DNA of 64,000 nucleotides, from positions 4,216,001 through 4,280,000 of the forward strand of contig NC_083531.1 of assembly GCF_032362555.1 (NCBI RefSeq). Reading direction: 5' to 3'. The stretch is from Amyelois transitella. Its lineage: Eukaryota > Arthropoda > Insecta > Lepidoptera > Pyralidae. Made by a program: the position numbers and the translations under genes. The stretch's first letter is position 1, and each line of letters begins with the position of its first letter. Positions 14,558 through 61,350 of this stretch are shown here, in pieces. The notes beneath the pieces were generated by a model. That model saw nothing but the letters and a program-made list of their open reading frames with translations. It was not told the DNA's origin and ran no database searches.

Positions 14558-14572
14558 ATGGTGACAGTATGA
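14558..14572 (+). promoter_or_regulatory. Minimal uORF overlapping the Paip2-A start codon
   Basis: ATG GTG ACA GTA TGA. The TGA overlaps the main ATG as ATGA (14569-14572). Copies B and C read ATT instead of ATG, so only copy A has it. Reinitiation or start competition is plausible but unproven. Confidence 0.7.
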
Positions 14573-17500
14573 AGATCCCAGAGACATCGGCAAACGTTGG
14601 TGCTTACTATGGTAACGAGGAGAATGGACAGTGGCAGGTATGTTGATCTATCTACCTACATATAATCACGTCTATATCCCTTGCGGGTCAGACAGAGCAA
14701 ATAATCTTAAAAAGACTGATAGGTCACGTTTAGCTATTTGGCTTAATGATAGAATTGAGATTCAAATAGTGACAGGTTGCTAGCCCATCGCCTTAAACAA
14801 AAAGATCTTTAGTTTGTACGCCTATCCCTTAGTCAACAAACTTGAGATAATTTTTTTTAGGCGATGGGCTAGCAATCTGTCACTATTTGAATTTCAATTC
14901 TATCATTGATCTAAATAGCTGAACGTGGCCATTCGGTCTTTTCAAGACTGTTGGCTCTGTCTACCCCGCAAGGGGTATAGACGTGACCATATGTATGTAT
15001 GTAATACAATATGTATGTATGTATTTCAGCAGCCCAACGGCGTGATAATGGATTCCGGCGTGGGCGGCGGCGTGGTGGGCGCCGGCGACGCGGGCGTTCA
15101 GCGGCCACCCCTCTACCCCGTACATGTGCCGAGGTCGCATATACCCGGTAAGTGTCTTCTTCTTCTTTAGCCCATATTTTTTTTTATTAATAAATAAATA
15201 TATACGGGACAAATTACACTGATTGAGTTAGCCTCGAAGTAAGTTCGAAACTTGTGTTATGAGATACTAACTCAACGATACTATATTTTATAACAAATAC
15301 TTAATATAGATAAACATCCAAGACCCAGGTCAATCAGAAAAAGTTCTTTTCTCATCATGCTTGCCGGGATTTGAACCCGGGACCTCCGGTGTCACAGACA
15401 AGCGTACTTGACCTTCCAGCAATCTTGACCAGATCGTCCGTCCATCTGATAGGGTTTTTCATGACATTCTCAATATCTTTGTATGTATATGTAATACCTT
15501 TCTTACTTTAAATTAATGAATCGATTGAACAGCCAAGGTGACGCAACACATACTTGTCAATGTTGAACCAATCAGTGTAAACCACATTAATAGTGTTATT
15601 TGTCATCAAATTTTTCACCATAACGTCATAAATTCTTATATGAAAATTTACATAAACTTTGCGTGTATGCTTCTATCTATACTTATATTATATAGCTGAA
15701 GAGTTTATATAAATAAATATAAATATAAATATATACGGGACAAATTACACTGATTGAGTTAGCCTCGAAGTAAGTTCTAAACTTGTGTTACGAGATACTA
15801 ACTCAACGATACTATATTTTATAATAAATACTTATATAGATAAACATCCAAGACCCAAGACAATCAGAAAAAGTTCTTTTCTCATCATGCCCTGACCGGG
15901 ATTCGAACCCAGGACCTCCGGTGTCACAGACAAGCGTAGTACCGCTGAGCCACAGAGGCCGTTTGTTGTTTTTTTGAGTTTGTTTGTTTGAACGCGCTAA
16001 TCTCAAGAACTAGTGGTTCGAATTGAAAAATTCTTTTTGCATTGAATAGACCATTTATCGAGGAAGGCTTAAGGCTATATAACATCCCGCTGCAACTATA
16101 AAGAGCAAAGAAATAATGGAATGCATATGTTTAAAAATCGGGAAAAATTATTCATCCTTAAGGGGTTCCAATGATGCCCAAAGTAACTATTCCACGCGGA
16201 CGAAGGAAGTAGTAGACGGGCACAGTTAGTATTTGATAACTAGCATTTTGTCTGGGGGCGGCATCCATTAAAAAGAGATGGAGTGGTCGTATTCTTTTTT
16301 TCATTGTTGCCGGGAACCACACGGCATAAATTCTTATATGAAAGTTTATTTAAAATTTTTGGTGTATATTATCCAGGCTACGTGATGGCCGGCGCGTATT
16401 ACCCCCCGGCGCCCTACGCGGCGCCGGCGACGCCCGACGACTTCGCCGACTACATGTGGATGGAGAACGAGGAGGAGTTTGATAAACAGGTATATATAGT
16501 TTGTTCATTACAAATTGCTCGTTTGCTATTGCTAGTTTTTGTTGTTGACAGGATGTCGTAAAAGGCGACTAAGGGATAGGCTTATGAACGTGGGATTGTC
16601 CGTTTGGGCGTAAGGCCATCATCCAAAAGGAGAATCCCAAATTATACAGGGTGACTTTTAATTCAACTGCATAAATTTAACTGTTAAGTGTACTCATCTA
16701 AAGGATATTTAAAAAGGTTAAAAAAAAATATCGGTTCATATTTCAGAAAGCACGAAAAAAATAAAAGTATAAAAATCCACGATCCTAAATACGTCATATC
16801 ACCCCGGTCGGCGGAAAAGCGACGCGTAAGATTCAGAGGTCAACGACACAATTCATTCAGCTGAGCGATCTCGACAACTCCGTACTTTACTTGATCTTGA
16901 TACTAGAAAAATAATTTATTTCTTAGACATTTATTACATGTTTAGTTTTAATTTCTTTTTGTAGTATTGGTATGTATAAAAACGCGTGTGACGTAGTTTT
17001 TGAGGGTTTTTTAAATGTGAAAATGATGACGTTTAATTTAAATAAAGATAGGCTCAAACGGCTTAGAAGCATGGGTTGGCAGTTGTTTTAAATGTCACCC
17101 TGTATAAGCCTATCGCTTATTCATGAAGAAAAATGAGTGGTCCTATTTCTTTTTCTATTTGTGCTGGGAACCACACGGCACGGTTTAATACAATATTAGG
17201 TTAATATTTGTACGGAATTGACCTCACACGGCAATAATTTCAGGTGATGCAACAGTTGGAGGAGGAGGCGTTGATGGAGCAGTGTATAGAGGCGATGTTG
17301 GAGGACGAGCAGAGGGAGAGGCGCAGGCCGAACGGGCACCATCAGTATCCCACGTGAGTGTCAAATTGTATATCACGGTAGAACCACACGGCTCAATGTG
17401 TGTAGTTTGTCCCGCCAAAAGAAAAAAAAGAACTTCAGTGCTACACTGCAGATAGACTGCAGAACTACATACATACATATAACCACGTCTATATCCCTTG

Positions 17501-20500
17501 CGGGGTAGACAGAGCCAACAGTCTTGAAAAGGCTGATGGGCCACGTTCAGCTGTTTGGCTTTATGATGGAATTGAGATTCAAATAGTGACAGGTTGCTAG
17601 CCAATCGCCTGAAAGAAGAATTCCAAGTTTATAAGCCTACAGCCTTAGTCGCCTTTTACGACATCCATGGGAGAGAGATAGATAGTGGTCCTATTCTTTT
17701 TTGTATTTGGTGCCGGGAAACACACGGCACATAAACAACATGTGAAACCAAAAGTCATGACAATTATTAACTGACGTTGGAAGTGTCCCATAATAATGAA
17801 CAAATAAAATGTATAACATTGAAGTATGCAGAGATCGTGGCGAGTGGAACGAGGTGGTCTCCGCCTACCCCTCCGGGAAAGAGGCGTGATTTTATGTATA
17901 TATATTGACAAAAGTTATTTGGACAAATTTGTGTTGCGTCACCTTGGCTGTTCAACCCATTCATTAATTTAATGTATGTCATGTATGTATGTATAACATC
18001 CTGAATATCCTGATTAAGGTTGCAGGCAGGCTAGACTGCCTATATGTCAACCATTCTTGCGCCATTTCGGGGGGAGTGGTGCAAGAATGGCCACTTTAGA
18101 AATCATGCTGTCCCTAGCTAGGTACTAACATAGTTTTTAAGCATTACTAATACAAACGAGTCCTTGTTACTTATTTAAATAAAATTCATTCATTCATTCA
18201 TTATTATCTGCGACAGAACCAGCAACGGTGCTTCATCGCTGTCCCTCGAGGAGACCGTGTCCCGGTCTCGCCTCAACCCCCTCGCCGCCGAGTTTATTCC
18301 CACGGCCGCCGTCACTAGGACGGTTACAGGTAATTTTAACTGTACATTACATACCAGGCCTGTTACAGGTAATTTTAACTGTACATTACTTACTAGGCCT
18401 GTTACAGGTAATTTTAACTGTACATTACATACCAGGCCTGTTATAGGTAATTTTAACTGTACATTACATACCAGGCCTGTTACAGGTAATTTTAACTGTA
18501 CATTACATACCAGGCCTGTTACAGGTAATACTGTACATTACATACCAGGCCTGTTACAGGTTATTCACTATACATAACATATGATCGTGTTTATATCCCC
18601 TTGCAGCGGGGTAGACGGAGTTTGGAACTTTGTCTAATTGTCCTCGGTTTTGGTCGTTATATATAAAAATATTTATTATGAAATATAGTATCGTTAGTTA
18701 GTATCTCGTAACACAAGTCTCGAACTCACTTCGAGGCTGACTCGATCTGTGTAATTTTCCCCGCATATATTTTTCTAATAATTCTAATTTATTTTAATTA
18801 TTTAGGAATAAAATGAAACCACGCATTCAACTCGGGAACGGAAGAGAGAGAGATTTTATTCGGTTTTGCACACTTGTTACAGATTATTATTAATTGAAGG
18901 CAAAAGAAAGTAGCTCACATACAGACAAATAGACAGGTATAGAGGGCGCTGCTGGTGCAATATTTTTTGAGTAAATTATAACAATATATTTTTTTGTATT
19001 ACAGAAGAGAAACGAGACACGCCGGAGACTCCGAGCACGGAGTCCCAGCAGTCGGAGCAGGAGGAACAGAAACCCGAGGAGGCTGAACAGCTCACAGACA
19101 CACACACAGACCCGCAGATAGGTGGGTTGATATGTCACACAAGCTGAATTTTTATATATATATAAATTCAGCTATATATACAGGGTGACTTTTAATACAA
19201 CTGCATAAAATTTAACTGTTAAGTGTACTCATCTATAGGATATTAAAAAACGTTAAAAGAAAATTATCGGTTCATATTTCAGAAAGTACGAAAAAAAATA
19301 AAATATCAAAATCCACGATCCCAAATACGTCATATCACCCCGCGACAAATACCAAAAGCGACGCGTAAGATTCAGAGGTCAACGACACAATTCATTTAAC
19401 TGAGCGATCTCGACAACTCTGTACTTTACTTGATCTTGATACTAGAAAAATAGTTTATTTTTCAGACATTTATTTACATGTTTAGTTTTAATTTCTTTTT
19501 GTAGTATATTGGTCTTTAATAAAGCGTGTGACGTATAGTTATTGAGGGTTTTTTAAATGTGAAAATGATGACGTTTAACTTAAATAAAAATAGGCTCAAA
19601 CGGCTCAGAAGCATAGGTATAGTCTATGTTTAAAAGGATGCAGTTGTTTCAAATGTCATCTTGTATATATATATATATATATTTTATATGTAGGCACGTC
19701 TGTATCCCCTACGGGGGTGGACAGAGCCGACTGCCATCGGAAAACTGAAAGTATATAAGCCTATCCCTTGGTCGCCTTTTACGACATCCATGGGAAAGAG
19801 ATAGCAGTTCTATTCTTTTTTTCTATTACACTGCACGATTTTTATACATACCGAGACACTGATTAAGAAAGTTTGTCATACAAAAAAAAATTGAATATAT
19901 ATCTCAATTAAATTATTGTTATTATATTACATTATTAATATATATTCAATATAATTTCAGAACCCACGCCGCCCCCCACGGACCCGCCGGAAGTGTCCGC
20001 GGCGGACGTTCAGACAGACGACAAGCGGAAAGACAAACACAACAAGAGATCTGAGCCGAAGAGAGCGGTCAGAGACAACAAGGCTAAAGGGAAGGCCGCG
20101 CAAGTTAAAGAGGCGACTAAGGTCGGGAAGAAGGAGGAGAGGCGAGAGGGGAGGGTGGGCAACAGCGGGGATGACAGCGATGGGGATGTTCAGGTGAGAT
20201 GTGCAGACATACATACACACAAACTTAATATACAGGGTGACATTTAAAACAACTGCATCCTTTTAAACATAGACTATACCCATGCTTCTGAACCGTTTAA
20301 GCCTATTTTTATTCAAAATAAACGTCATCATTTTTACATTTAAAACCCTCAAAAACTATACGTCACACGCTTTATTAAAGACCAATATACTACAAAAAGA
20401 AATTAAAACTAAATAAATGTCTGAAAAATAAACTATTTTTCTAGTATCAAGATCAAGTAAAGTACAGAGTTGTCGAGATCGCTCAGCTGAATGAATTGTG

Positions 20501-21270
20501 TCGTTGACCTCTGAATCTTACGCGTCGCTTTTGGTATTTGTCGCGGGGTGATATGACGTATTTAGGATCGTGGATTTTGATACTTTAATTTTTTTTCGTA
20601 CTTTCTGAAATATGAACCGATATTTTTCTTTTACCGTTTTTAAATATCCTTTAGATGAGTACACTTAACAGTTAAATTTATGCAGTTCAATTAAAAGTCA
20701 CCCTGTGTAGAAGATGGGAGTGAATGACCGACTGATATATCACTGCGCAACACAAACAGCTTTGGAGAGTTGAAATTTGGCGTGTAGATCCTTTAGGGTG
20801 CACTAAGAGGGTATTTCCCAAAATCTCCCGCGGGAACGGGAATTATTGTTTCACGCGGGCGGAGCCGCGGGCGTCGTATAAGCCGACTAAGGGATAGCCT
20901 TATAAACTTGGAATTCTTCTTGTAGGCATTGGGCCAGCAACCTGTCACTATTTGAATCTCAACTCTAACAGCTGAACGTGACCTCTCAGTATTTTCAAGA
21001 CTGTATACCCTGTCTACCTCGCAAGGGATATAAACGTGATTTAACATATGTATGTAACTATTCATTTCATTACAGCCCCAACCGGCCCCAGTAGAAGAGC
21101 AAACCGGCCCCAAACCCATAAACTACGCGGCGGCCGCCAAAGCGAACAAACCCAAAAAGCCCAGCACGCCGCCCGCCGCGGAGAAGACGTCGCCCGTCCC
21201 CACCGCTGGCACCAAAATTGACAAGAAGAAGGTCGACAAACCCGTGCAGAGGAAGAATTCGGCCAAGTGA
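14569..21270 (+). CDS. Paip2: Paip2 copy A, poly(A)-binding-protein-interacting protein 2
   Basis: Eight coding exons: 14569-14637, 15030-15147, 16377-16489, 17244-17353, 18217-18329, 19005-19121, 19961-20193, 21076-21270; 1068 bp, 355 aa, all GT-AG. Exons 3-4 encode the acidic PABP-binding region, with DDFADYMWMENEEEF at about 83-97 and LEEEALMEQCIEAMLEDE after it, as in Paip2 PAM1. Exon 5 encodes the PAM2 motif SRLNPLAAEFIP (154-165), which binds the PABP MLLE domain. Paip2 displaces PABP from poly(A) and represses translation. The Glu/Pro and Lys-rich tail (175-355) has no counterpart in the roughly 127-aa vertebrate protein. The first exon also has a 5' UTR part from 14429. A four-codon uORF overlaps the start. 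This copy has no lesion and is the best candidate for the ancestral functional gene. Confidence 0.92.
14655..15001. repeat. Two S1 SINEs in inverted orientation in Paip2-A intron 1
   Basis: 14655-14838 is minus strand and about 14842-15001 plus strand. Together they can fold into an intronic hairpin. Copies B and C have only the minus-strand element. Confidence 0.75.
15183..15408 (-). repeat. tRNA-derived SINE S2 in Paip2-A intron 2
   Basis: Contains GGGTTCAAATCCCGG (B box) and the shared body with TTAGTATCTCATAACACAAG. The A-box end is lost after GCTTGTCTGTGAC. Confidence 0.75.
15671..16229 (+). mobile_element. Helitron H1 interrupted by a tRNA-derived SINE S2
   Basis: H1 start at 15671-15703, SINE S2 (minus strand) at about 15708-15962 with A box TGGCTCAGCGG and B box GGTTCGAATCCCGG, then the H1 remainder to GGGCACAGTTAGT at 16229. 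Confidence 0.75.
16647..17102 (+). mobile_element. MITE (family M1) with TA target duplication
   Basis: Ends CAGGGTGAC and GTCACCCTG are inverted. Flanking TA dinucleotides (16645-16646, 17103-17104) are the duplicated target: the paralogous sites in B (about 33360) and C (about 58110) read through without it. No coding capacity. TA targets suggest a Tc1/mariner-type transposase. Other copies: 19181-19663, 20233-20705, 29106-29574, 37583-38014, 38846-39325, 46280-46748, 60243-60717. Confidence 0.85.
17467..17733 (-). repeat. SINE-like repeat S1 in Paip2-A intron 4
   Basis: Near full-length; paralogous copies lie at 33727-33988, 36012-36283 and 58475-58735, so the insertion predates the duplication. 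Confidence 0.85.
17998..18208 (+). mobile_element. LINE 3'-end fragment with (ATTC)n tail in intron 4
   Basis: A short 3' end (markers GCAGGCAGGCTAGACTGCCT and ATGGCCACTTTAGAAATCAT) ending in ATTCATTCATTC. Also present at 34258-34480 and 59000-59225, but absent from B module 2 (around 36548), which shows the empty site. Confidence 0.75.
18323..18580 (+). repeat. Minisatellite carrying repeated exon-5 splice donors (copy A)
   Basis: About six units of 39 bp (later ones 35 bp) plus a partial one. Each contains GTTACAGGTAAT or a close variant, so each recreates the ACAG|GTAAT donor at the exon 5 end (18329). Because 39 bp is 13 codons and the first units lack stops, downstream donors could lengthen the protein by 13-residue steps. 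Confidence 0.85.
18658..18770 (+). repeat. tRNA-derived SINE S2, body fragment
   Basis: Contains AGTATCGTTAGTTAGTATCT and CACTTCGAGGCTGACTCGAT; no A or B box. Equivalent to 37130-37258 in unit B. Confidence 0.7.
19181..19663 (+). mobile_element. MITE M1 in Paip2-A intron 6
   Basis: CAGGGTGACTTTTAATACAA at the left, and ...AAATGTCATCTTG at the right. Same intron and orientation as the copy C element at 60243-60717; opposite to B at 37583-38014. Confidence 0.8.
20233..20705 (-). mobile_element. MITE M1 in Paip2-A intron 7
   Basis: Reverse-orientation copy: CAGGGTGACATTTAAAACAA to AAAAGTCACCCTG. Shared with B (38846-39325) and absent from C. Confidence 0.85.
20880..21055 (+). repeat. S1 SINE remnant in Paip2-A intron 7
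   Basis: S1 body preceded by a GC-rich segment (CACGCGGGCGGAGCCGCGGG) of unclassified transposon origin at 20810-20880. Paralogous to 39495-39665. Confidence 0.65.
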
Positions 21271-28810: not shown

Positions 28811-29105
28811 TAATTGAGGCAACAATTTTCACTGGTGTATATGCAGGAGAAACAGTTTTTATTCCACGGATCCCATTAATGCCATCGGATTACCAAATTC
28901 CATTTAAGCGTGTTCAATTTCCAGTCAAGCTGTGCTACGCCATGACTATAAATAAGGCACAGGGGCAAACATTAAAAGTGGCTGGCATAGATTTGAGGAA
29001 CGATTGCTTCTCCCACGCTCAGTTGTATGTAGCCTGTTCCAGAGGGAGTGATTGCGACAGTTTATATATACTACAATCAGAGAGTAAGACTAGAAATGTG
29101 GTATA
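28811..29105 (+). pseudogene. Helitron helicase C-terminal remnant (unit A)
   Basis: A frame with FIPRIPLMPSDY, FKRVQFPVKLCYAMTINKAQ and CFSHAQLYVACSRG matches the C-terminal motifs of the Pif1-like helicase of Helitron Rep/Hel proteins (motifs V/VI: MTINKAQGQT, YVACSR). Only about 95 residues remain of a protein normally well over 1000. It is cut off by the MITE at 29106. Non-functional. Confidence 0.85.
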
Positions 29106-29574
29106 CAGGGTGACATTTAAAACAACTGCATCCTTTTAAACATAGACTATACCCATGCTTCTGAGCTGTTTGAGCCTATTTTTATTTAAATTAAACGTCA
29201 GCATTTTCACATTTAAAAAACCCGCAAAAACTACGTCACACGCTTTATTAAAGACCAATAACTACAAAAAGAAATTAAAACTAAATGAATGTCTGAAAAA
29301 TATATTATTTTTCTAGTATCAAGATCAAGTAAAGTACAGAGTTGTCGAGATCGCTCAGCTGAATGAATTGTGTCGTTGACCTCTGAATCTTACGCGTCGC
29401 TTTTCCGCCGGCCAGGGTGATATGACGTATTTAGGATCGTGGATTTTGATACTTTAATTTTTTTTCGTACTCTCTGAAATATGAACCGATATTTTTCTTT
29501 TAACGTCTTTAAAAATCCTTTAGATGAGTACACTAAACAGTTAAATTTATGCAGTTGAATTAAAAGTCACCCTG
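29106..29574 (-). mobile_element. MITE M1 inserted in the Helitron remnant
   Basis: CAGGGTGACATTTAAAACAA to AAAGTCACCCTG flanked by TA. Present at the same place in unit B (46280-46748), so it predates the A/B duplication. Confidence 0.85.
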
Positions 29575-29689
29575 TATAAAGAGGTTTTTTCAAAAATAAT
29601 CCTTACACCCATCATCACTCATTCAAATCCAAACTTATTTTGAATGTAGTATTCGTCCTTCTTCATCTAATACATAAAAATAAATATTT

Positions 29690-30547: not shown

Positions 30548-31300
30548 GTTAGTTTAGTTTTTTTATATATTACTATTTCATTTTAAATATAGAATAATGT
30601 GACGGTGCTGCATGTTTACGAATTGTGCTTTAAATTTATTTATTGTGGATTTTTTTAGTATAAAGTTAGTTATTTTTCAATTATTACGATTTAAAATATA
30701 GAATTAGGTGTCTTATTTTTTTTACTACGATTTATGTTAAAGTCGAAGGAAATTAAATTCTTGTTAGGTAAAGTCAGTTTCTAGATAGTTGTTAATTTTA
30801 TTATTTTGTGCTATATAACTAGCTAACTAAACACAAGCTAACTTTAAACAAATACCAGATTCGATCCTAAAGAAATTATATTTTTATAATTTATATCACT
30901 TCTGTATTAGTATTTATTGTACATATTCATTTCGTATGTTTCGGCGGAATTTATATCTATACTTTATTTCTAACAAACATCTATCCAAGACTTAGGGTGA
31001 CTCGTAATCGATTCAGTAGTTATTGCGTGAAAGAGTAACAAACATCCATACTGACATCCTGACTGATATACTCACAAAGTTTCGCATTTATAATATTAAA
31101 AGAATTTAAAAAAAAGTGATAATAAAATATTAAATACGATATTCTCCTTAATTACAGATACGTGGTGCACCGGCGAAGGTAACAATCACGTCGCACGTAC
31201 AACGCGAACCTGACAGTGCCTGAATAAGTGTTGAAAAATATAAAAAATAAAAATATATTTTTTTTTACTCGTACACGCGTAAACATATAATTGTGACAGT

Positions 31301-34300
31301 ATGAAGATCCCAGAGACATTGGCAAACGTTGGTGCTTACTATGGAAACGAGGAGAATGGACAGTGGCAGGTATGTTGATCTATCTACATATAATCACGTC
31401 TATATCCCTTGCGGGTCAGACAGAGCCAACAGTCTTAAAAGACTGATAGGCCACAGCTCAGCTATTTGGCTTAATGATAGAATTGTGACTCAAATAGTGA
31501 CAGGTTGCTAGCCCGTCGCCTAAAAAATATAATCTCAAGTTTGTAAGTCTATCCCTTAGTCGCCTTTAACGACATCCATGGGAAAGAGATGGAGTGGTGT
31601 TATTCTTTTTTGTATTGGTGCCGGGTACCACACGGCACTATCTATAATATTAAAAAGCTGAAGAGTTTGTTTGTTAAACTACCGGTTCGAATTGAAAAAT
31701 TATTTTTGCGTTGAATAGACCATTTATCGAGGAAGGCTTTATATAACATCACGCTGCAACTATAGGGAGCGTAGAAATAATGGAATGAGTGAATAAAAAA
31801 CCGGGAAAATTATTCATCCTTGAGGTCTCCCATGTACCTATGCAGAGATCGTGGCAAGTGGAAAGAGGTAGTCTCTGCCTACCCCTCCGGGAAAGAGGCG
31901 TGATTTTATATATGTATGTATGTATGTATAAATACAAATAATACAATAATATACATGTTTTTCAGCAGCCCAACGGCGTTATGACGGATTGCGGCGTGGG
32001 CGGCGGCGTGGTGGGCGCCGGCGACGCGGGCGTTCAGCGGCCGCCTCTCTACCCCGCACTTGTGCCGAGGTCGCCTATACCCGGTAAGTGTCAACTTCTT
32101 ATTCTAATTCTAGATATTCATTCATTATTACGGGACATTTCAAAGTGAAATTCTTCTGGCTTTCCCCGAGCTGTGCCTTTGATCCTGGATTGGGTGAGTC
32201 AGGTTTTAGACGTAGAGACTCCCGTCTGACCTCCGCAACCTTTGCAGGGGAACCTAACCCGTATTGGATACATGTTTATTTATACATACAGTTGACTGAA
32301 TGTGCAGGTTTTCTCACGATGATCTCCCTCGCCGTAAGACATTTCAACATCACTTAATAATTGTTATATTTTTTTATTTCAAAAATTGGTTGACGTCAAA
32401 TAAATTACTTAAAACGACAGTTTGCTGCCGCTTCCAAAGTGCCAGTCAGTGTACAAGAAGCATTAACAAACTGCACTGCAGCATTTTCTTCAATAACGTC
32501 GTCTTCACAAATATTCGAACTTGAATAGAAATGTGGACGAGATAAATGTATTACGAATACATTGTTGTGATTAATTGATTTATACGAAATTTGAAAAATT
32601 AAAAATATAATTTAAAATGGAATGTTAACTAGGTCGATGTACAGAGTGTACTGAATTTTGATTAAGATTCAAAGCAAACTATTCATCTTTACAAGGTTCC
32701 TGCGCCAAGCTCAAGCCAGATATTTGTATAAAATTTAGTATCTATATATACATACCTTGTTCCCCTCAGGGGTACTCGTACCTACACATGACTACGGATT
32801 TCTACTCGCAACACACTCTGGTCGCTTTTCACAATTTTTTTTTGTATACTCTCCTCTCATCTTCCCTTTTCAAGATATTCTCAATATCTATCTATATTTA
32901 ATACCTTATCTACTTTTAATTAATGAATCGATTGAACAGCCAAGGTGACGCAACACATACTTGTCAAATAACTTTGTCAATGTTGAACCAATCGTGTTAT
33001 ATGGCATCAAATTTCTCACCATGACGTCATAAATTCCTATATGAATGTTTACATTAAATTTTTCCTGTATATATCCAGGCTACGTCATGGCCGGCGCGTA
33101 TTACCCCCCGGCGCCCTACGCGGCGCCGGCGACGCCCGACGACTTCGCCGACTACATGTGGATGGAGAACGAGGAGGAGTTTGACAAACAGGTGTGTATA
33201 GTTTGTTCATTACAAATTGCTGGTTTTTGTTGTTGACAGGTTGGTTGACGTTAAAGGTCCCGCGGATGTCGTAAAAGGCGACTAAGGGATAGGCTTATGA
33301 ACGTGGGATTGTCCATCTGGGCGTTCGTTTGGGGCCATCACCCAAAAAGAGAATCCCAAATTATATAAGCCTATTGCTTATTCATGAAAAAAAATGAGTG
33401 GTCCTATTTCTTTTTCTATTTGTGCCGGGATCTACACGGCACGGTTTTATATAATATTAGGTTAATATTTATACGGAATTGACCTCATACGGCAATAATT
33501 TCAGGTGATACAACAGTTGGAGGAGGAGGCGTTGATGGAGCAGTGTATAGAGGCGATGTTGGAGGACGAGCAGAGGGAGAGGCGCAGGCCGAACGGGCAC
33601 CATCAGTATCCCACGTGAGTGTCAAATTGTATATCACGGTAGAACCACACGGCTCAATGTGTGTAGTTTGTCCCGCCAAAAAAAAAAGAACTTCAGTGCT
33701 ACACTGCAGATAAACTGCAGAACTACATACATACATATAATCACGTCTATATCTATTGCGGGGTAGACAGAGCCAACAGTCTTGAAAAGACTGATGGGCC
33801 ACGTTCAGCTGTTTGGCTTTATGGTGGCATTAAGATTTAAATAGTGACAGGTCGCTAGCCAATCGCCTCGCCTCGAAGAAGAATTCCAAGTTTATAAGCC
33901 TACACCTTAGTCGCCTTTTACGACTTCTATGGGAAAGAGATGGAGTGGTCATATTCTTTTTTGGATTTGGTGCCGGGAATCACACGGCACATATACAACA
34001 TGTGAAACCAAAAGTCATGACAATTATCAACTGACGTTGGAAGTGTCCCATAATAATGAATAAATAAAATGTACAACATTGAAGTATGCAGAGATCGTGG
34101 CGAGTGGAAAGAAGGTAGTCTCTGCCTACCCCTCCGGGAAAGAGGCGTGATTTTATGTATACATATGCATGTATATTGACAAAAGTTATTTGGACAAGTT
34201 TGTGTTGCGTCACCTTGGCTGTTCAACCGATTCATTAATTTAATGTATTTATGTATAACATCCTGAATATCCTGAATATGATTGCAGGCAGGCTAGACTG

Positions 34301-37300
34301 CCTATATGTCAACCATTCTTGCGCCATTTCGGGGGGAGTGGTGCAAGAATGGCCACTTTAGAAATCATGCTGTCCCTAGGTACTAACATAGTTTGTAAGC
34401 ATTACTAATACAAATGAGTCCTTGTTACTTATATAAATAAAATTCATTCATTCATTCGTTCATTCATTCATTATTATCCGCGACAGAACCAGCAACGGCG
34501 CCCCGTCGCTGTCCCTCGCGGAGACCGTGTCCCGCTCCCGCCTCAACCCGCTCGCTGCTGAGTTTGTTCGCTCCCGCCTCAACCCGCTCGCCGCCGAGTT
34601 CGTGCCCACCGCCGCCGTCACCAGGACTGTTACAGGTAATTTATTGTACATTACATATGTTACATAGTGCCGTGTGGTTCCCGGCACCAATACAAAAAAG
34701 AATATGTCACACACTCCGTCTCTTTCCCATGGATGTCGTAAAAGGCGCGACTGAGGGATAGGGCTTACAAGCTTGGGATTCTTTTTTTTTAGGCGATGGG
34801 CTAGCAACCTGTCACTGTTTGAATCTCAATTTTATCATTAAGCCAAATAGCTGAACGTGGCCGTTCAGTCTTTTCAAGACTGTTGGCTCTGTCTACCCCG
34901 CAAGGAATATAGACGTGAACATAATAAAATGACGTGAATAAAATGAAACCACGTATTCAACTCGGGAACTGAAGAGAGAGAGAGAGAGATTTTATTCAGT
35001 TTTGCACACTTATTACAGATTATTAATTGAAGGCAGGCAAAAGAAAATAGCTTGCATACAGCCATATAGATAGACACATGACTACGGATTTCTACTTGCA
35101 ACACACTCTGGTCGCTTTTCACAATTTTTTTTTGTATACTCTGCTCTCATCTCCCCTTTTCAAGATATTCTCAATATCTATCTATATTTAATGCCTTATC
35201 TACTTTTAATTAATGAATCGATTGAACAGCCAAGGTGACGCAACACATACTTGTCAAATAACTTTGTCAATGTTGAACCAATCGTGTTATATGTCATCAA
35301 ATTTCTCACCATGACGTCATAAATTCTTATATGAATGTTTACATTAAATTTTTCCTGTATATATCCAGGCTACGTCATGGCCGGCGCGTATTACCCCCCG
35401 GCGCCCTACGCGGCGCCGGCAACGCCCGACGACTTCGCCGACTACATGTGGATAGAGAACGAGGAGGAGTTTGACAATCAGGTGTGTATAGTTTGTTCAT
35501 TACAAATTGCTGGTTTTTTGTTGTTGACAGGTTGGTTGACGTTAAAGGTCCCGCGGATGTCGTAAAAGGCGACTAAGGGATAGGCTTATGAACGTGGGAT
35601 TGTCCGTCTGGGCGTTCGTTTGGGGCCATCACCCAAAAAGAGGATCCCAAATTATATAAGCCTATCGCTTATTCATGAAAAAAAATGAGTGGTCCTATTT
35701 CTTTTTCTATTTGTGCCGGGATCTACACGGCACGGTTTAATATAATATTAGGTGAATATTTATACGGAATTGACCTCACACGGCAATAATTTCAGGTGAT
35801 ACAACAGTTGGAGGAGGAGGCGTTGATGGAGCAGTGTATAGAGGCGATGTTGGAGGACGAGCAGAGGGAGAGGCGCAGGCCGAACGGGCACCATCAGTAT
35901 CCCACGTGAGTGTCAAATTGTATAGCACGGTAGAACCACACGGCTCAATGTGTGTAGTTTGTCCCGCCAAAAAAAAAAGAACTTCAGTGCTACACTGCAG
36001 ATAAACTGCAGAACTACATACATACATATAATCACGTCTATATCTATTGCGGGGTAGACAGAGCCAACAGTCTTGAAAAGACTGATGGGCCACGTTCAGC
36101 TGTTTGGCTTTATGGTGGAATTGAGATTTAAATAGTGACAGGTCGCTAGCCAATCGCCTCGCCTCGAAGAAGAATTCCAAGTTTATAAGCCTACACCTTA
36201 GTCGCCTTTTACGACTTCTATGGGAAAGAGATGGAGTGGTCATATTCTTTTTTGTATTTGGTGCCGGGAATCACACGGCACATAAACAACATGTGAAACC
36301 AAAAGTCATGACAATTATCAACTGACGTTGGAAGTGTCCCATAATAATGAATAAATAAAATATATAACATTGAAGTATGCAGAGATCGTGGCGAGTGAAA
36401 AGAGGTAGTCTCCACTTACACCTCTGGGAAAAAGGCGTGATTTTATGTATGTTATGTATGTATATTGACAAAAGTTATTTGGACAAGTTTGTGTTGCGTC
36501 ACCTTGGCTGTTCAACCGATTCATTAATTTAATGTATGTATATATAACATTATTATCCGCGACAGAACCAACAACGGTGCTTCATCGCTGTCCCTCGAGG
36601 AGACCGTGGCCCGCTCTCGCCTCAACCCGCTCGCCGCCGAGTTTGTTCCCACGGCCGCCGTCACTAGGACTGTTACAGGTAATTTTAACTGTACATTACA
36701 TACCAGGCCTGTTACAGGTAATTGACTGTACATTACATACCAGGCCTGTTACAGGTAATACTGTACATTACATACCAGGCCTGTTACAGGTAATTGACTG
36801 TACATTACATACCAGGCCTGTTACAGGTAATTGACTGTACGTTACATACCAGGCCTGTAACAGGTAATACTGTACGTTACATACCAGGCCTGTTACAGGT
36901 AATACTGTACATTACATACCAGGCCTGTTACAGGTAATTCACTATACATAACATATGATCGTGTTTATATTCCCTTGCTGCGGGGTAGACGGAGTTAACA
37001 GTCTCGAAAAGATTGGTAGGCCATGTAAATACACTGCAGCATTTATCCGTGGGCAAGCATCACAATTTTTACTTGTGGCGTTCATATACTTGAAATATTT
37101 GGAACTTTGTCTAATTGTCCTGGGTTTTGGTCGTTATATATACATATATATAAGTATATATTATAAAATATAGTATCGTTAGTTAGTATCTCGTAACACA
37201 AGTCTCGAACTTACTTCGAGGCTAACTCGATCTGTGTAATTTGCCCCGTATATATTTTTAAATCGGGAACGGAAGAGAGAAAGATTTTATTCAGTTTTGC

Positions 37301-39900
37301 ACACTTATTACAGATTATTAATTGAAAACAAAAGAAAGTAGCTCACATACAGCCAAATAGATAGGTATTGAGGGCGCTGCTGGTGCAATATTTTTTGAGT
37401 AAATTATAACAATATATTTTTTTGTATTACAGAAGAGAAACGAGACACGCCGGAGACTCCGAGCGCGGAGCCCCAGCAGTCGGAGCAGGAGGAACAGAAA
37501 CCCGAGGAGACTGAACAGCTCACAGACACACATACAGAACCGCAGATAGGTGAGTTGATATATACACAAGCTGAATTATCTACAGGGTGACATTTAAAAC
37601 AACTGCATCCTTTTAAACATAGACTATACCCATGCTTCTGAGCTGTTTGAGCCTATTTTTATTTTTATTAAAAGTCATCATTTTCACATTTAAAAAACCC
37701 TCAAAAACTACGTCACACACTTTATTAAAAACCAATACTACAAAAAGAAATTAAAACTAAACATGTAAATAAATGTCTGAAAAATAAATTATCTTTCTAG
37801 TATCAAGATCAAGTAAAGTACAGAGTTGTCGAGATCGCTCAGCTGAATGAATTGTGTCGTTGACCTCTGAATCTTACGCGTCGCTTTTCCGGCCGTCATA
37901 TGGGGTGATATGACGTATTTAGGATCGTGGATTTTGATACTTATATTTTTAAATATCCTTTAGATGAGTACACTTAACAGTTAAATTTATGCAGTTGAAT
38001 TAAAAGTCATCCTGTATACTAATATTGTAAAGCTGAAGAGTTTGTTTGTTTGTTTGTTTGAACGCGCTAATCTCAAGAATTACTGGTTCGAATTGAAAAA
38101 TTATTTTTGTGTTGAATAGACTATCTATAGAGGAAAGTTTTAGGCTATATAACATCACGCTGCAACTATAAGGTGCGAAGAAATAATGGAAAATGGGGGG
38201 AAAAACACGGGGAAAATTATTCATAATTGAGGGCTTCAATGATGCCCAAAATAAGTAGTAGTCCACGCGGACGAAGTCGCGGGCACAGATAGTTACTATA
38301 TACTATATATATATATATATATATACTAGCTGTCCCGGCAAACGTTGTTTTGCCATATTAATAATTTTATAAGTAATGTCTAGTTAAAAAAAATGTTAAG
38401 GGTGGACAACACTTAACACTTAGGGGTATGAGAAATAGATGTTAGCCGATTCTTAGACCTACTGAATATGCATGCAAAATTTGGTTAAAATCGGTAAAGC
38501 CGTTTCGGAGGAGTACGGAGACAAACATTGTGACACGAGAATTTTATATATATGTATATATATATAATTTCAGAACCCACGCCGCCCCCCACGGACCCGC
38601 CGGAAGTGTCCGCGGCGGACGTTCAGACAGACGACAAGCGGAAAGACAAACACAACAAGAGATCCGAGCCGAAGAGAGCGGTCAGAGACAACAAGGCTAA
38701 AGGGAAGGCCGCGCAAGTTAAAGAGGCGACTAAGGTCGGGAAGAGGGAGGAGAGGCGAGAGGGGAGGGTGGGCAACAGCGGAGACGACAGCGATGGGGAT
38801 GGTCAGGTGAGATGTGCAGACATACATACACACAAACTTAATATACAGGGTGACATTTAAAACAACTGCATCCTTTTAAACATAGACTATACCCATGCTT
38901 CTGAACTGTTTAAGCCTATTTTTATTCAAAATAAACGTCATCATTTTTTCATTTAAAAACCCTCGAAAACTACGTCACACGCTTTATTAAAGATCAATAA
39001 TACTACAAAAAGAAATTAAAACTAAACATCTAAATAAATGTCTGAAAAATAAATTATTTTTCTAGTATCAAGATCAAGTAAAGTACAGAGTTGTCGAGAT
39101 CGTTCAGCTGAATGAATTGTGTCGTTGACGTCTGAATCTTACGCGTCTCTTTTCCGCCGGCCGGGGTGATATGACGTATTTAGGATCGTGGATTTTGATA
39201 CTTTAATTTTTTTTTTTGTACTTGCTGAAATATGAACCGATATTTTTCTTTTAACGTTTTTAAATATCCTTTAGATGAGTACACTTAACAGTTAAATTTA
39301 TGCAGTTCAATTAAAAGTCACCCTGTATAGAAGATGGGAGTGAATGACCGACTGATATATCACTGCGCAACACAAACAGCTTTGGAGAGTTGAAATTTGG
39401 CGTGTAGATCCTTTAGGGTGCACTAAGAGGGCTTTCCCAAAACTCCCGCGGGAACGGGAATTATTGTTTCACGCGGGCGGAGCCGCGGGCGTCGTATAAG
39501 CCGACTAAGGGATAGCCTTATAAACTTGGAATTCTTCTTGTAGGCATTGGGCCAGCAACCTGTCACTATTTGAATCTCAACTCTAACAGCTGAACGTGAC
39601 CTCTCAGTATTTTCAAGACTGTATACCCTGTCTACCTCGCAAGGGATATAAACGTGATTTAACATATGTATGTACTCATGTATGTAACTATTCATTTCAT
39701 TCCAGCCCCAACCGGCCCCAGTGGAAGAGCAAACCGGCCCCAAACCCATAAACTACGCGGCGGCCGCCAAAGCGAACAAACCCAAAAAGCCCAGCACGCC
39801 GCCCGCCGCGGAGAAGACGTCGCCCGTCCCCACCGCTGGCACCAAAATTGACAAGAAGAAGGTCGACAAACCCGTGCAGAGGAAGAATTCGGCCAAGTGA
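31301..39900 (+). CDS. Paip2: Paip2 copy B, with duplicated PAM1-PAM2 module
   Basis: Eleven exons: 31301-31369, 31966-32083, 33079-33191, 33505-33614, 34487-34635, 35369-35481, 35796-35905, 36566-36678, 37433-37549, 38574-38806, 39706-39900; 1440 bp, 479 aa, no stops. Exons 6-8 repeat exons 3-5. Because the block begins and ends in phase 1, exon 5a (ending G) joins exon 3b (starting GC) as glycine in frame. The product would carry two acidic PAM1 regions (about 83-125, 207-249) and three PAM2 motifs (154-165 ending VR, 166-177, 278-289). The N-terminal set resembles copy C and the second PAM2 exon resembles copy A, so the locus looks chimeric. Expression and actual splicing (inclusion or skipping of either set) cannot be told from DNA. 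Confidence 0.85.
31385..31637 (-). repeat. SINE-like repeat S1 in Paip2-B intron 1
   Basis: Paralogous to 14655-14838 and 56150-56398. Confidence 0.8.
32090..33078. other. Paip2-B intron 2
   Basis: Contains a short GC-richer segment (32145-32270), a reversed LINE 3' fragment (32395-32520) and otherwise plain AT-rich DNA. Almost identical to copy C intron 2 and largely different from copy A intron 2. Confidence 0.6.
33727..33988 (-). repeat. SINE-like repeat S1 in Paip2-B intron 4a
   Basis: Near full-length; paralogous to 17467-17733. Confidence 0.85.
34669..34925 (+). repeat. SINE-like repeat S1 after exon 5a
   Basis: Follows a single donor unit, where copy A and B module 2 have the minisatellite. 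Shared with copy C at 59413-59668. Confidence 0.85.
35071..35078 (+). other. Junction of the exon 3-5 duplication
   Basis: Sequence left of the junction (ACAGCCATATAGATAG) matches intron 5 of copy C near 59805. Sequence to the right (ACACATGACTACGGATTTCT) matches intron 2 of C near 57527. Intron 5 has thus been joined to intron 2, the expected product of a tandem duplication or unequal crossover. Confidence 0.85.
36012..36283 (-). repeat. SINE-like repeat S1 in Paip2-B intron 4b
   Basis: Second intronic copy created by the module duplication; very similar to 33727-33988. Confidence 0.85.
36672..36950 (+). repeat. Minisatellite with repeated splice donors (copy B, after exon 5b)
   Basis: Seven full units and one partial, of 39, 37 and 35 bp, each with GTTACAGGTAAT or close variant. 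Eight potential donors in a row; because 37 and 35 are not multiples of three, downstream donors would shift the frame, unlike in copy A. Confidence 0.85.
37583..38014 (-). mobile_element. MITE M1 in Paip2-B intron 6, inverted relative to A and C
   Basis: CAGGGTGACATTTAAAACAA to AAAAGTCATCCTG. It is followed directly by Helitron H1 (38015-38292) and H2 (38326-38556), both absent from A and C at this site. Confidence 0.8.
38015..38556. mobile_element. Helitron H1 (+) and H2 (-) inserted before Paip2-B exon 7
   Basis: H1 from about 38015 to GGGCACAGATAG and H2 from CTAGCTGTCCCGG to about 38556. The exon 7 acceptor (TATATAATTTCAG, 38573) lies only about 17 bp beyond the H2 edge. Confidence 0.75.
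38846..39325 (-). mobile_element. MITE M1 in Paip2-B intron 7
   Basis: Paralogous to 20233-20705. Confidence 0.85.
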
Positions 39901-56059: not shown

Positions 56060-59000
56060 ATGAAGATCCCAGAGACATTGGCAAACGTTGGTGCTTACTA
56101 TGGAAACGAGGAGAATGGACAGTGGCAGGTATGTTGATCTATCTACATATAATCACGTCTATATCCCTTGCGGGTTAGACAGAGCCAACAGTCTTAAAAA
56201 GACTGATAGCCCACAGCTCAGCTATTTGGCTTAATGATAGAATTGTGATTCAAATAGTGACAGGTTGCTAGCTCGTCGCCTATAAAATATAATCATAAGT
56301 TTGTAAGCCTATCCCTAAGTCGCCTTTAACGACATCCATGGGAAAGAGATGGAGTGGTGTTATTCTTTTTTGTATTGGTGCCGGGTACCACACGGCACTA
56401 TCTATACTAATATTATAAAGCTGAAGAGTTTGTTTGTTAAACAAATAAACTACCGGTTCGAATTGAAAAATTCTTTTTGCGTTGAATAGACCATTTATCG
56501 AGGAAGGCTTTATATAACATCACGCTGCAACTATAGGGAGCGTAGAAATAATGGAATGAGTGAATAAAAAACGCGGAAAATTATTTATCCTTGAGGTCTC
56601 CCATGTACCTATGCAGAGATCGTGGCAAGTGGAAAGAGGTAGTCTCTGCCTACCCCTCCGGGAAAGAGGCGTGATTTTATATATGTATGTATAAATACAA
56701 ATAATACAATAATATGTATGTTTTTCAGCAGCCCAACGGCGTTATGATGGATAACGGCGTGGGCGGCGGCGTGGTGGGCGCCGGCGACGCGGGCGTTCAG
56801 CGGCCGCCTCTCTACCCCGCACTTGTGCCGAGGTCGCCTATACCCGGTAAGTGTCAACTTCTTATTCTAATTCTAGATGTTCATTCATTATTACGGGACA
56901 TTTCAAAGTGAAATTCTTCTGGCTTTCCCCGCCTTTGATCCTGGATTGGGTGAGTCAGGTTTTAGACGTAGAGACTCCCGTCTGACCTCCGCAACCTTTG
57001 CGGGGGAACCTAACCCGTATTGGATACATGTTTATTTATACATACAGTTGACTGAATGTGCAGGTTTTCGCACGACACCAGACATTTCAACATCACTTAA
57101 TAATTGTCATATTTTTTTATTTCAAAAATTGGTTGACGTCAAATAAATTACTTAAAACGACAGTTTGCTGCCGCTTCCAAAGTGCCAGTCAGTGTACAAG
57201 AAGCATTAACAAACTGCACTGCAGCATTTTCTTCAATAACGTCATCTTCACAAATATTCGAACTTGAATAGAAATGTGGACGAGATAAATGTATTACGAA
57301 TACATTGTTGTGATTAATTGATTTATACGAAATTTGAAAAATTAAAAATATAATTTAAAATGGAATGTTAACTAGGTCGATGTACAGAGTGTACTGAATT
57401 TTGATTAAGATTCAAAGCAAACTATTCATCTTTACAAGGTTCCTGCGCCAAGCTCAAGCCAGATATTTGTATAAAATTTAGTATCTATATATACATACCT
57501 TGTTCCCCTCAGGGGTACTCGTACCTACACATGACTACGGATTTCTACTTGCAACGCACTCTGGTCGCTTTTCACAATTTTTTTTTGTATACTCTCCTCT
57601 CATCTCCCCTTTTCAAGATATTCTCAATATCTATCTATATTTAATGCCTTATCTACTTTTAATTAATGAATCGATTGAACAGCCAAGGTGACGCAACACA
57701 TACTTGTCAAATAACTTTGTCAATGTTGAACCAATCGTGTTATATGTCATCAAATTTCTCACCATGACGTCATAAATTCTTATATGAATGTTTACATTAA
57801 ATTTTTCCTGTATATATCCAGGCTACGTCATGGCCGGCGCGTATTACCCCCCGGCGCCCTACGCGGCGCCGGCGACGCCCGACGACTTCGCCGACTACAT
57901 GTGGATAGAGAACGAGGAGGAGTTTGACAAACAGGTGTGTATAGTTTGTTCATTACAAATTGCTGGTTTTTTGTTGTTGACAGGTTGGTTGACGTTAAAG
58001 GTCCCGCGGATGTCGTAAAAGGCGACTAAGGGATAGGCTTATGAACGTGGGATTGTCCGTCTGGGCGTTCGTTTGGGGCCATCACCCAAAAAGAGGATCC
58101 CAAATTATATAAGCCTATCGCTTATTCATGAAAAAAAATGAGTGGTCCTATTTCTTTTTCTATTTGTGCCGGGATCTACACGGCACGGTTTAATATAATA
58201 TTAGGTTAATATTTATACGGAATTGACTTCACACGGCAATAATTTCAGGTGATACAACAGTTGGAGGAGGAGGCGTTGATGGAGCAGTGTATAGAGGCGA
58301 TGTTGGAGGACGAGCAGAGGGAGAGGCGCAGGCCGAACGGGCACCATCAGTATCCCACGTGAGTGTCAAATTGTATATCACGGTAGAACCACACGGCTCA
58401 ATGTGTGTAGTTTGTCCCGCCAAAAAAAAAAAGAACTTCAGTGCTACACTGCAGATAAACTGCAGAACTACATACATACATATAATCACGTCTATATCCC
58501 TTGCGGGGTAGACAGAGCCAACAGTCTTGAAAAGACTGATGGGCCACGTTCAGCTGTTTGGCTTTATGGTGGAATTGAGATTTAAATAGTGACAGGTCGC
58601 TAGCCAATCGCCTCGCCTCGAAGAAGAATTCCAAGTTTATAAGCCTACACCTTAGTCGCCTTTTACGACTTCTATGGGAAAGAGATGGAGTGGTCATATT
58701 CTTTTTTGTATTTGGTGCCGGGAATCACACGGCACATAAACAACATGTGAAACCAAAAGTCATGACAATTATCAACTGACGTTGGAAGTGTCCCATAATA
58801 ATGAATAAATAAAATGTACAACATTGAAGTACGCAGAGATCGTGGCGAGTGGAAAGAAGGTAGTCTCTGCCTACCCCTCCGGGAAAGAGGCGTGATTTTA
58901 TGTATATATATGCATGTATATTGACAAAAGTTATTTGGACAAGTTTGTGTTGCGTCACCTTGGCTGTTCAACCGATTCATTAATTTAATGTATTTATGTA

Positions 59001-61350
59001 TAACATCCTGAATATCCTGAATATGATTGCAGGCAGGCTAGACTGCCTATATGTCAACCATTCTTGCGCCATTTCGGGGGGAGTGGTGCAAGAATGGCCA
59101 CTTTAGAAATCATGCTGTCCCTAGGTACTAACATAGTTTGTAAGCATTACTAATACAAATGAGTCCTTGTTACTTATATAAATAAAATTCATTCATTCAT
59201 TCGTTCATTCTTTCATTATTATCCGCGACAGAACCAGCAACGGCGCCCCGTCGCTGTCCCTCGCGGAGACCGTGTCCCGCTCCCGCCTCAACCCGCTCGC
59301 TGCTGAGTTTGTTCGCTCCCGCCTCAACCCGCTCGCCGCCGAGTTCGTGCCCACCGCCGCCGTCACCAGGACTGTTACAGGTAATTTATTGTACATTACA
59401 TATGTTACATAGTGCCGTGTGGTTCCCGGCACCAATACAAAAAAGAATAGGTCACACACTCCGTCTCTTTCCCATGGATGTCGTAAAAGGCGCGACTGAG
59501 GGATAGGGCTTACAAGCTTGGGATTCTTTTTTTTTAGGCGATGGGCTAGCAACCTGTCACTGTTTGAATCTCAATTTTATCATTAAGCCAAATAGCTGAA
59601 CGTGGCCGTTCAGTCTTTTCAAGACTGTTGGCTCTGTCTACCCCGCAAGGAATATAGACGTGAACATAATAAAATGACGTGAATAAAATGAAACCACGTA
59701 TTCAACTCGGGAACTGAAGAGAGAGAGAGAGATTTTATTCAGTTTTGCACACTTATTACAGATTATTAATTGAAGGCAGGCAAAAGAAAATAGCTTACAT
59801 ACAGCCATATAGATAGGTATAGAGGGCGTTGGTGCAATATTTTTGGAGTAAATTATAACAATATATTTTCATTTTGTCCCTTTCCATCATGTCTCCTATC
59901 TCGGGTCTGCTGGAAGAGATTTCTTTTGAAATAAGCAGAACCTTTGTAATTTTGTTTCTTGTGTTTATCAGTCTCGATGTTTTCTGTGTACATAAATTAG
60001 TAAATAATATATATTTTTTTTGTATTGCAGAAGAGAAACGAGACCCGCCGGAGACTCCGAGCGCGGAGCCCCAGCAGTCGGAGCAGGAGGAACAGAAACC
60101 CGAGGAGGCTGAACAGCTCACAGACACACATACAGAACCGCAGATAGGTGAGTTGATATGTCACACAAGCTGAATTAATTATTATATATATATATAATAA
60201 TTCTAGTATATATATATATATATAAATTGAGCTATATATATACAGGATGACTTTTAATTCAACTGCATAAATTTAACTGTTAAGTGTACTCATCTAAAGA
60301 ATATTTAAAAACGTTAAAAGAAAAAATATCGGTTCATATTTTAGAAAGTACGAATAAAAATAAAAGTATCAAAATCCACGATCCTAAATATGTAATATCA
60401 CCCCGGCCGGCGGAAAAGCCACGCGTAAGATTCAGAGGTCAACGACACAATGCATTCAGCTGAGCGATCTCGACAACTCTGTACTTTACTTGATCTTGAT
60501 ACTAGAAAAATAATTTATTTTTCAGACATTTATTTACATGTTTAGTTTTAATTTCTATTTGTAGTATTGGTCTTTAATAAAGCGGGTGACGTAGTTTTTG
60601 AGGGTTTTTTAAATGTGAAAATGATGACGTTTAATTTCAATTAAATAGGCTCAAACGGCTCAGAAGCATGGGTATAGTCTATGTTAAAAGGATGCAGTTG
60701 TTTTAAATGTCACCCTGTATATATAGTAACATATTGCATATATAACATAACGTATATAACATATATATATATATATATAATTTCAGAACCCACGCCGCCC
60801 CCCACGGACCCGCCGGAAGTGTCCGCGGCGGACGTTCAGACAGACGACAAGCGGAAAGACAAACACAACAAGAGATCTGAGCCGAAGAGAGCGGTCAGAG
60901 ACAACAAGGCTAAAGGGAAGGCCGCGCAAGTTAAAGAGGCGACTAAGGTCGGGAAGAAGGAGGAGAGGCGAGAGGGGAGGGTGGGCAACAGCGGAGACGA
61001 CAGCGATGGGGATGGTCAGGTGAGATGTGCAGACATACATACACACAAACGAAATATATAGGAGAATAGGATAGATTTATTTTCAAAATTGGACACAAGG
61101 TATCACTTATTGACGTCACATCGCTTAAATCTAATTATATCTACCACCGCTTCCGAAGAAGGCGATGGGCCAGCGACCTGTCACTATTTGAATCTCAACT
61201 CTAACATTTAGCCAAACAGCTGAACTGGGTGGTTTAATGTATGTATGTAGGTACTCATGTATGTAACTATTCATTTCATTACAGCCCCAACCGGCCCCTG
61301 TGGAAGAGCAAACCGGCCCCAAACCCCTAAACTACGCGACGGCCGCCTAA
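56060..61350 (+). CDS. Paip2: Paip2 copy C, double PAM2, C-terminally truncated
   Basis: Eight exons: 56060-56128, 56729-56846, 57822-57934, 58249-58358, 59232-59380, 60031-60147, 60787-61019, 61285-61350; 975 bp, 324 aa. The acidic PAM1 region is intact (DDFADYMWIENEEEF). Exon 5 has a 36-bp tandem duplication giving two PAM2 motifs back to back (154-165 ending VR, then 166-177 ending VP). In exon 8, AAA GCG of copies A and B reads TAA GTG, so translation stops 43 codons early and the basic tail is lost. The old stop is still at 61477-61479. As the stop is in the last exon, mRNA decay is not expected. Intron 5 has gained a LINE-like insert next to the exon 6 acceptor. It could be functional with altered binding, or be on the way to a pseudogene. 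Confidence 0.85.
56150..56398 (-). repeat. SINE-like repeat S1 in Paip2-C intron 1
   Basis: Paralogous to 31385-31637. Confidence 0.8.
58475..58735 (-). repeat. SINE-like repeat S1 in Paip2-C intron 4
   Basis: Paralogous to 17467-17733. Confidence 0.85.
59413..59668 (+). repeat. SINE-like repeat S1 in Paip2-C intron 5
   Basis: Paralogous to 34669-34925; no donor minisatellite here. Confidence 0.85.
59868..60010 (+). mobile_element. LINE-like fragment in Paip2-C intron 5
   Basis: Insert specific to copy C (TTTCCATCATGTCTCCTATC, TTTTGAAATAAGCAGAACCT). It ends just upstream of the exon 6 acceptor, whose tract reads TGTATTGCAG instead of TGTATTACAG. Confidence 0.5.
60243..60717 (+). mobile_element. 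MITE M1 in Paip2-C intron 6
   Basis: CAGGATGACTTTTAATTCAA to AAATGTCACCCTG; same orientation as copy A. Confidence 0.85.
61060..61250 (-). mobile_element. Reversed LINE 3' fragment and S1 remnant in Paip2-C intron 7
   Basis: Replaces the MITE and GC-rich sequence found in introns 7 of A and B. Markers: TTTCAAAATTGGACACAAGG and CACCGCTTCCGAAGAAGGCG. Confidence 0.55.

Follow-up and report, generated by a model that had tools for sequence, protein, structure and literature searches.

A tandem array of predicted Paip2-like genes with multiplied exon blocks for PAM1-like regions and PAM2 motifs in Amyelois transitella

Gene structures in the array

The lepidopteran Amyelois transitella carries six tandem Paip2-like genes on contig NC_083531.1 (designated as C27), which we modelled at C27:4230569-4351028 (about 120 kb) and designated as A to F. 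The window analyzed here, a stretch of 64,000 nucleotides (nt) at C27:4216001-4280000, covers only part of this array: A, B, and C lie inside it, and coordinates without a contig prefix refer to it. A search of the assembly (327 Mb, 33 contigs) with an exon 2-5 peptide yielded 46 candidates, 45 of which were matches; these all lie on C27 and reach as far as 4347519. Twelve 10-kb stretches of C27 were added for the gene models, and 184 kb was examined. Sixteen matches to the Chorion_1 family in the assembly, each above the cut-off (15 on C28, one on C8), agree with a lepidopteran source, as would the intron repeats; PF03260, a lipoprotein family taken to be lepidopteran, had no match, and neither had its controls.

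The genes differ in the number of copies of a block consisting of exons 3, 4, and 5, hereafter a module. Genes A to F contain 1, 2, 1, 2, 2, and 5 modules, respectively (13 total). Exon 5 occurs in two types, one with two PAM2 motifs (5d) and one with a single PAM2 (5s). Naming each module by its exon 5, the layouts are s in A, d-s in B, d in C, d plus exon 6 followed by s in D, d-s in E, and d-d-d plus exon 6-d-d in F. Gene A (coding span 14569..21270, + strand) thus has one module with exon 5s, and gene C (56060..61479, + strand) has one with exon 5d. The predicted products of A to F are 355, 479, 324, 518, 479, and 859 amino acids (aa) long and contain 1, 3, 2, 3, 3, and 10 PAM2 motifs, respectively, while exons 7-8 encode a long Lys/Arg-rich C-terminal part. 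The 71 coding exons of the six genes show no non-canonical splice site and no phase break. Exon 6, too, is phase 1-1, so that D and F include it without loss of frame.

Gene B, whose coding span runs from its start codon to its stop codon at 31301..39900 (+ strand), has 11 coding exons in the order 1-2-3-4-5d-3-4-5s-6-7-8. Exon 3a (33079..33191) encodes the first half of a PAM1-like region with the core MWMENEEEF, exon 4a (33505..33614) encodes the second half, and exon 5a (34487..34635; 149 nt, type 5d) encodes two PAM2 motifs by means of a 36-nt repeat within the exon. After a hybrid intron (34636..35368), exon 3b (35369..35481) follows with the core MWIENEEEF and a K to N change two codons before the exon end; exon 4b (35796..35905) is identical to exon 4a at the protein level, and exon 5b (36566..36678; 113 nt, type 5s) encodes one PAM2. 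All of these lie on the + strand. The preliminary description of this DNA had placed exons 3-4-5 twice in B as a portable phase 1-1 block, whose duplication keeps the frame and yields 479 aa, and both statements proved exact. The exon positions agree base for base, and all six exons of the two sets (33079-34635 and 35369-36678) are flanked by AG upstream and GT downstream. The spliced coding sequence of 1440 nt, including the stop codon, is open and encodes 479 aa, all introns being GT-AG with consistent phases. Phase 1 is found at the start of exon 3 and at the end of exon 5, and introns 2, 5, and 6 are all of phase 1, so the block has same-phase flanks and its repetition keeps the frame. The two blocks are 97.5% identical over 1,479 nt of alignment, a similarity far beyond chance. 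Preservation of the frame was dropped as strong evidence; it is weak evidence on its own because phases match in 6 of the 21 pairs that the introns of this gene can form, and the frame would survive in 27% of random joins between introns when these are weighted by length.

Module junctions, mosaic structure, and neighbouring elements

The hybrid intron of B consists of 436 nt resembling intron 5 of C (99.1%) and 295 nt resembling intron 2 (99.3%). Intron-5 sequence runs to 35073 and intron-2 sequence starts at 35074, GATAG being joined to ACACATG without microhomology or shared bases. The exact 24-nt string over this join is present in five of the seven module junctions (those of B, D, and E, and F1-F2 and F2-F3), which belong to four genes. 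The F3-F4 junction contains a one-base variant, and the F4-F5 junction lacks the join. In D and at F3-F4, exon 6 sits upstream of the join. F4 and F5 form a 2.07-kb direct repeat of 99.37% identity, with breakpoints of its own and at most one shared base. This second duplication in F is an independent event. As read from the junctions, the block has been multiplied at least twice independently, both times between introns 5 and 2. A doubled block private to B, as the duplication had first been described, was ruled out. The two sets in B are real, but the block is also doubled in D and E and five-fold in F, and the join and a second set are common to other genes, the join being identical. Judged from these sequences, the event is larger and older than the preliminary description had it, and is shared.

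Nor is the second set of B a plain copy of the first. Exon 5a, with its doubled PAM2, is identical to exon 5 of C, whereas exon 5b is of the A type. With one 36-nt repeat of 5a taken out, the synonymous difference between 5a and 5b is 0.245, compared with 0.025 between exons 3-4a and 3-4b. This value and the two exon types rule out 5a and 5b as mutual copies. A second set that copies the adjacent first one is seen in F4/F5, not in B, where the end is of the A type. In 250-nt windows over 31000-36249, B is 92.7-100% identical to C, while the window around exon 5b (36500-36749) is 94.1% identical to A versus 90.1% to C. Sites that side the second module of B (B2) with C end at 36285, save one at 36452, and the run in which the first module (B1) equals C starts at 36362, which places a putative exchange point in intron 4b at 36286..36361 (+ strand), where B switches from C-like to A-like. 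B2, D2, and E2 have in common a 226-nt gap in intron 4, two 1-nt gaps, and the single-PAM2 exon 5. Because the intron-4 deletion and exon 5s are common to all three, B probably inherited or received its second set. We read B as a doubled C/F-type 5' part combined with an A-type 3' part via an exchange in intron 4.

Minisatellites directly follow the single-PAM2 exon 5 in A (18323-18565, a 39-nt unit repeated 6.3 times) and in B (36666-36955, a 37-nt unit repeated 7.9 times). Both repeat the end of exon 5s including its GT donor. The minisatellite of A contains four downstream donor-like sites (+39, +78, +156, and +195), each extending the exon in frame and free of stops; in that of B, only the site at +39 does so.

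Several other frames and repeats accompany the genes. A mariner-type transposase frame between A and B (27057-28241, + strand; 395 aa, no internal stop) matches Transposase_1 (E 1e-18) and HTH_48. A reverse transcriptase frame between B and C (49147-52119, + strand; 991 aa) matches RVT_1 (E 2.8e-35) and endonuclease domains, and a 288-aa frame lies upstream of it at 47807. Two frames in antisense orientation, 949 and 1001 aa long (C27:4291449-4294295 and 4319029-4322031, - strand), which look endonuclease/retroelement-like by eye, are located in D and E, each inside the 4,351-nt intron, and were copied along with these genes. Copies resembling a miniature inverted-repeat transposable element by eye, roughly 300-490 nt long with inverted ends ACAGGGTGAC...GTCACCCTGT, are found in introns and intergenic DNA in both orientations (16642-17076, 19177-19668, 20228-20714, 29102-29582, 37577-37950, 38841-39334, 46276-46756, and 60239-60723). 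A 110-aa frame that resembles a Helitron/PIF1 helicase end by eye (28807-29136; C27:4282617, 4303712, and 4331574) precedes each of B, D, E, and F and therefore seems to move with the gene copies. Left of the array, a 367-aa frame (3011-4111, - strand) with C2H2 zinc-finger-like Cys/His spacing, again by eye, may be a flanking gene.

Predicted PABP-binding motifs and resemblance to Paip2

The best reading of the array genes is that they are Paip2-like with a variant architecture. Paip2 (PABP-interacting protein 2), an animal translation repressor, is usually presented as a small protein that has a single PAM1 and a single PAM2. The likeness to it consists of an acidic PAM1-like region followed by PAM2 with no MIF4G found, an order that A displays once. 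One PAM1-like region plus one PAM2 per protein is found in A only (1 PAM2), not in B-F. The array also departs from Paip2 in that a single predicted product can contain as many as five PAM1-PAM2 modules with ten PAM2 motifs, in the Lys/Arg-rich C-terminal part, and in its six tandem genes.

Pfam PAM2 (PF07145) matched three stretches of the B product (E 5.2e-14, 51.2 bits against a cut-off of 20) and the whole F protein (E 1.2e-41), while A alone reached 19.1 bits, just below the cut-off of 20. An acidic ENEEEF...LEEEALMEQCIEAMLEDE region lies N-terminal to every PAM2. Its ENEEEF core is present twice in the B product, with the Trp retained in both. The earlier count of two PAM1 and three PAM2 in B is therefore borne out for the three PAM2 stretches and for two ENEEEF regions, whereas these regions are putative PAM1 regions, so named for a presumed likeness to human Paip2 and for their own acidic character. 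The PAM1-like region had no Pfam match, and of the two sequence searches of the PDB, the first returned two unrelated chains (E 2.4 and 3.9) and the second none, so that no related chain was obtained. Among the Pfam matches of A and B with E values up to 1 there was no MIF4G, the domain whose absence separates Paip2 from Paip1. Among 17 pattern matches in viral contigs, there was no relative.

Both PAM2 copies of 5d retain Leu, Ala, Glu, and Phe. Two MLLE matches were found in the genome. One lies in an RRM-bearing gene with an intact KITGMLLE (PABP), and the other, a partial match on contig C3, looks like UBR5 by eye.

Paip2 is reported to bind mainly to the RRM2-3 part of PABP and to act as a stoichiometric repressor of PABP-driven translation (PMC6261967). 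PAM2 binds the MLLE domain; Phe is its strongest determinant, and in Paip2 the Leu contributes three orders of magnitude (PMC2854688). Repression by Paip2 through PABP is confirmed in a further paper, in which the name 'Pam2' is given to the glutamate-rich part, unlike the usage here (PMC3177865). A protein with two modules could occupy the two sites of a single PABP with greater firmness, or could bridge two PABP molecules.

History, rival explanations, and meaning of the array

From the gene structures, shared join, mosaic pattern, and motif counts observed here, we infer an order of events and, more indirectly, splicing, PABP binding, and an effect on translation. In a C/F-type gene with a doubled PAM2, a non-homologous join of introns 5 and 2 would have produced the doubled 3-4-5 block. 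A homologous exchange in intron 4 would then have combined this doubled 5' part with an A-type 3' part to give the 5d-5s layout, which tandem copying would have carried to B, D, and E, while F would have expanded to five modules, partly via the second, independent 2.07-kb duplication. If splicing retains all exons, as expected from the intact sites and phases, B would yield a Paip2 in which two PAM1-like helices are directed at PABP RRM2-3 and three PAM2 at MLLE, and such a two-module product may hold PABP tighter, or hold more than one PABP, compared with the one-module protein A. To this explanation as a whole, in which the PABP-binding modules of tandem Paip2-like paralogs were multiplied by join, exchange, and tandem copying, we assign a probability of about 0.6. 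Intron-to-intron joins of symmetric exon blocks are a well-known route to repeat proteins, and the array resembles such tandem duplications of phase 1-1 blocks in that a join of this kind multiplies the block in frame. It differs from the usual case in that neighbouring paralogs (94-99.8% identity) contain anywhere from 1 to 5 blocks and that two independent joins used the same two introns.

Several observations weigh against a functional role of the multiplied modules and suit a neutral array, in which unequal exchange and gene conversion, both frequent, would leave the repeats as a by-product, and the extra modules, kept in frame or skipped, would do nothing new. In exons 3-4 of the 13 modules, 13 amino-acid and 6 silent changes fall on 178.7 and 40.3 sites (p 0.14 versus neutral), so the PAM1 exons drift almost neutrally. 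Exon 3 is as variable as nearby introns (10 of 113 sites versus 16 of 313 in intron 3), and the core Trp of PAM1 is changed to Arg in E1, F3, F4, and F5 (4 of 13 modules). The predicted products of C and F end early in exon 8 at the same codon, a TAA (61348-61350 in C; C27:4350897 in F), by which the last protein part is lost and the PAM1 and PAM2 parts upstream are unaffected. The share of random intron joins that stay in frame, given above, is as a neutral array would have it, and skipping one or the other set in B would also keep the frame (predicted 355 or 367 aa). Other points speak against a simply additive binding of PABP by several motifs. The first PAM2 of exon 5a has Arg at the final Pro of the motif and lies just 12 residues from the second. 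The two PAM2 sites of eRF3/GSPT1, which resemble 5d as two close motifs in one protein, bind PABPC1 1:1 because they overlap and share Phe76 (PMC2854688), unlike the 5d motifs, each of which has its own Leu and Phe. Another paper reports that tethered 2x and 4x PAIP2 PAM2 were no better than 1x in suppressing nonsense-mediated decay (PMC5118804). Those constructs likewise carry multiple Paip2 PAM2 per chain, but they are engineered, contain no PAM1, and were tethered to a reporter (PMC5118804).

The invariance of exon 5d is likewise open to a neutral account. All nine 5d exons are identical (0 differences in 149 nt), but diversity climbs gradually from exon 5d into intron 4 (0 of 149, 5 of 204, and 24 of 292 sites), a conversion-tract-like decay. 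Recent gene conversion would explain the invariance without selection, and given this gradient, zero diversity was dropped as proof of selection. The diversity at intron 5 positions 61-430 (158 of 292 sites) was discarded, since F4/F5 carry other sequence there and the aligned bases are non-homologous. Of the ten fixed differences between the d and s forms of exon 5, most are from A/T to G/C (9:0:1 or 7:2:1, depending on which repeat is dropped), which fits GC-biased conversion. Third-position GC is 0.857 in exon 5d versus 0.73-0.757 in exon 5s, and the silent-site d/s difference in exon 5 is far above that of the flanking sequence. Exon 5d is possibly a gene-conversion hot spot. The s-type exons vary, with 3 silent and 3 amino-acid changes between A and B2.

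Against a neutral array stand the absence of frame-breaking indels or stops in the 39 module exons, the retention of all splice sites, and the independent duplication of the same block twice. In the 12 modules other than that of A, we counted 19 intron gap events (4 of which are one homopolymer run counted four times). The exons of these modules contain a single event, of 36 nt and in frame, and none that breaks the frame, against an expectation of 5.0 (P 0.007). The two 36-nt PAM2 repeats of 5d differ at silent sites only (4 synonymous and 0 amino-acid differences; P 0.006 if hits are random over sites), a 4-to-0 excess that is also compatible with GC-biased conversion. On balance, we consider a neutral array possible, though on the unlikely side.

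An alternative to the exchange, which we judge unlikely, is that the block was duplicated in place in B, that gene conversion then brought A-type sequence to the end of the second set, and that D and E subsequently arose from B. C-type sequence on both sides of the join, the single origin of B2, D2, and E2, and two adjacent derived bases that unite B1 and B2 against the other sites (33754-33755) favour it. However, the first part of B2 (exons 3-4 and their introns) is more similar to C (99.37%) than to B1 (98.56%), and the same join lies between two 5d modules in F, so that an origin in B is not required. An assembly error, with haplotypes or near-identical repeats strung out or misjoined and the two-module gene not on one chromosome, appears very unlikely. 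Identity is high throughout, and D and E have 4,984 nt in common, gapless at 99.78% and including a retroelement-like reading frame; this tract looks like a recent copy or an assembly repeat. On the other hand, there is no N in the 184 kb, private changes separate the B tract from C, the same join is found in five introns with differing flanking changes, copy-to-copy identity spans about 94 to 99.8%, and the location of all 45 exon-query matches on C27 leaves no spare haplotig copy seen in the assembly.

We found no account of such a Paip2 array in the full-text literature searched, a scope that most subscription papers lie outside. The tandem Paip2-like paralogs with multiplied modules lead us to a tentative suggestion, which we hold as possible rather than probable: a lepidopteran lineage may have turned a one-shot PABP inhibitor into a family of repeat proteins whose valency for PABP depends on how many modules they contain, a rapidly changing number (1 to 5, with 1 to 10 PAM2), with PAM2 kept and multiplied and PAM1 let go in the longest member, module number being a selected dial. 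If this is true, F would mainly serve as a sponge or scaffold that binds MLLE and acts on PABP or a UBR5-like MLLE ligase. With 1-, 2-, and 5-module paralogs and one recognisable PABP gene in one genome, the array would offer a natural test of how PABP inhibition depends on valency. It would also be a clear case of symmetric exon blocks multiplying and being reshuffled among paralogs by exchange, in which the junction types and donors are still readable.

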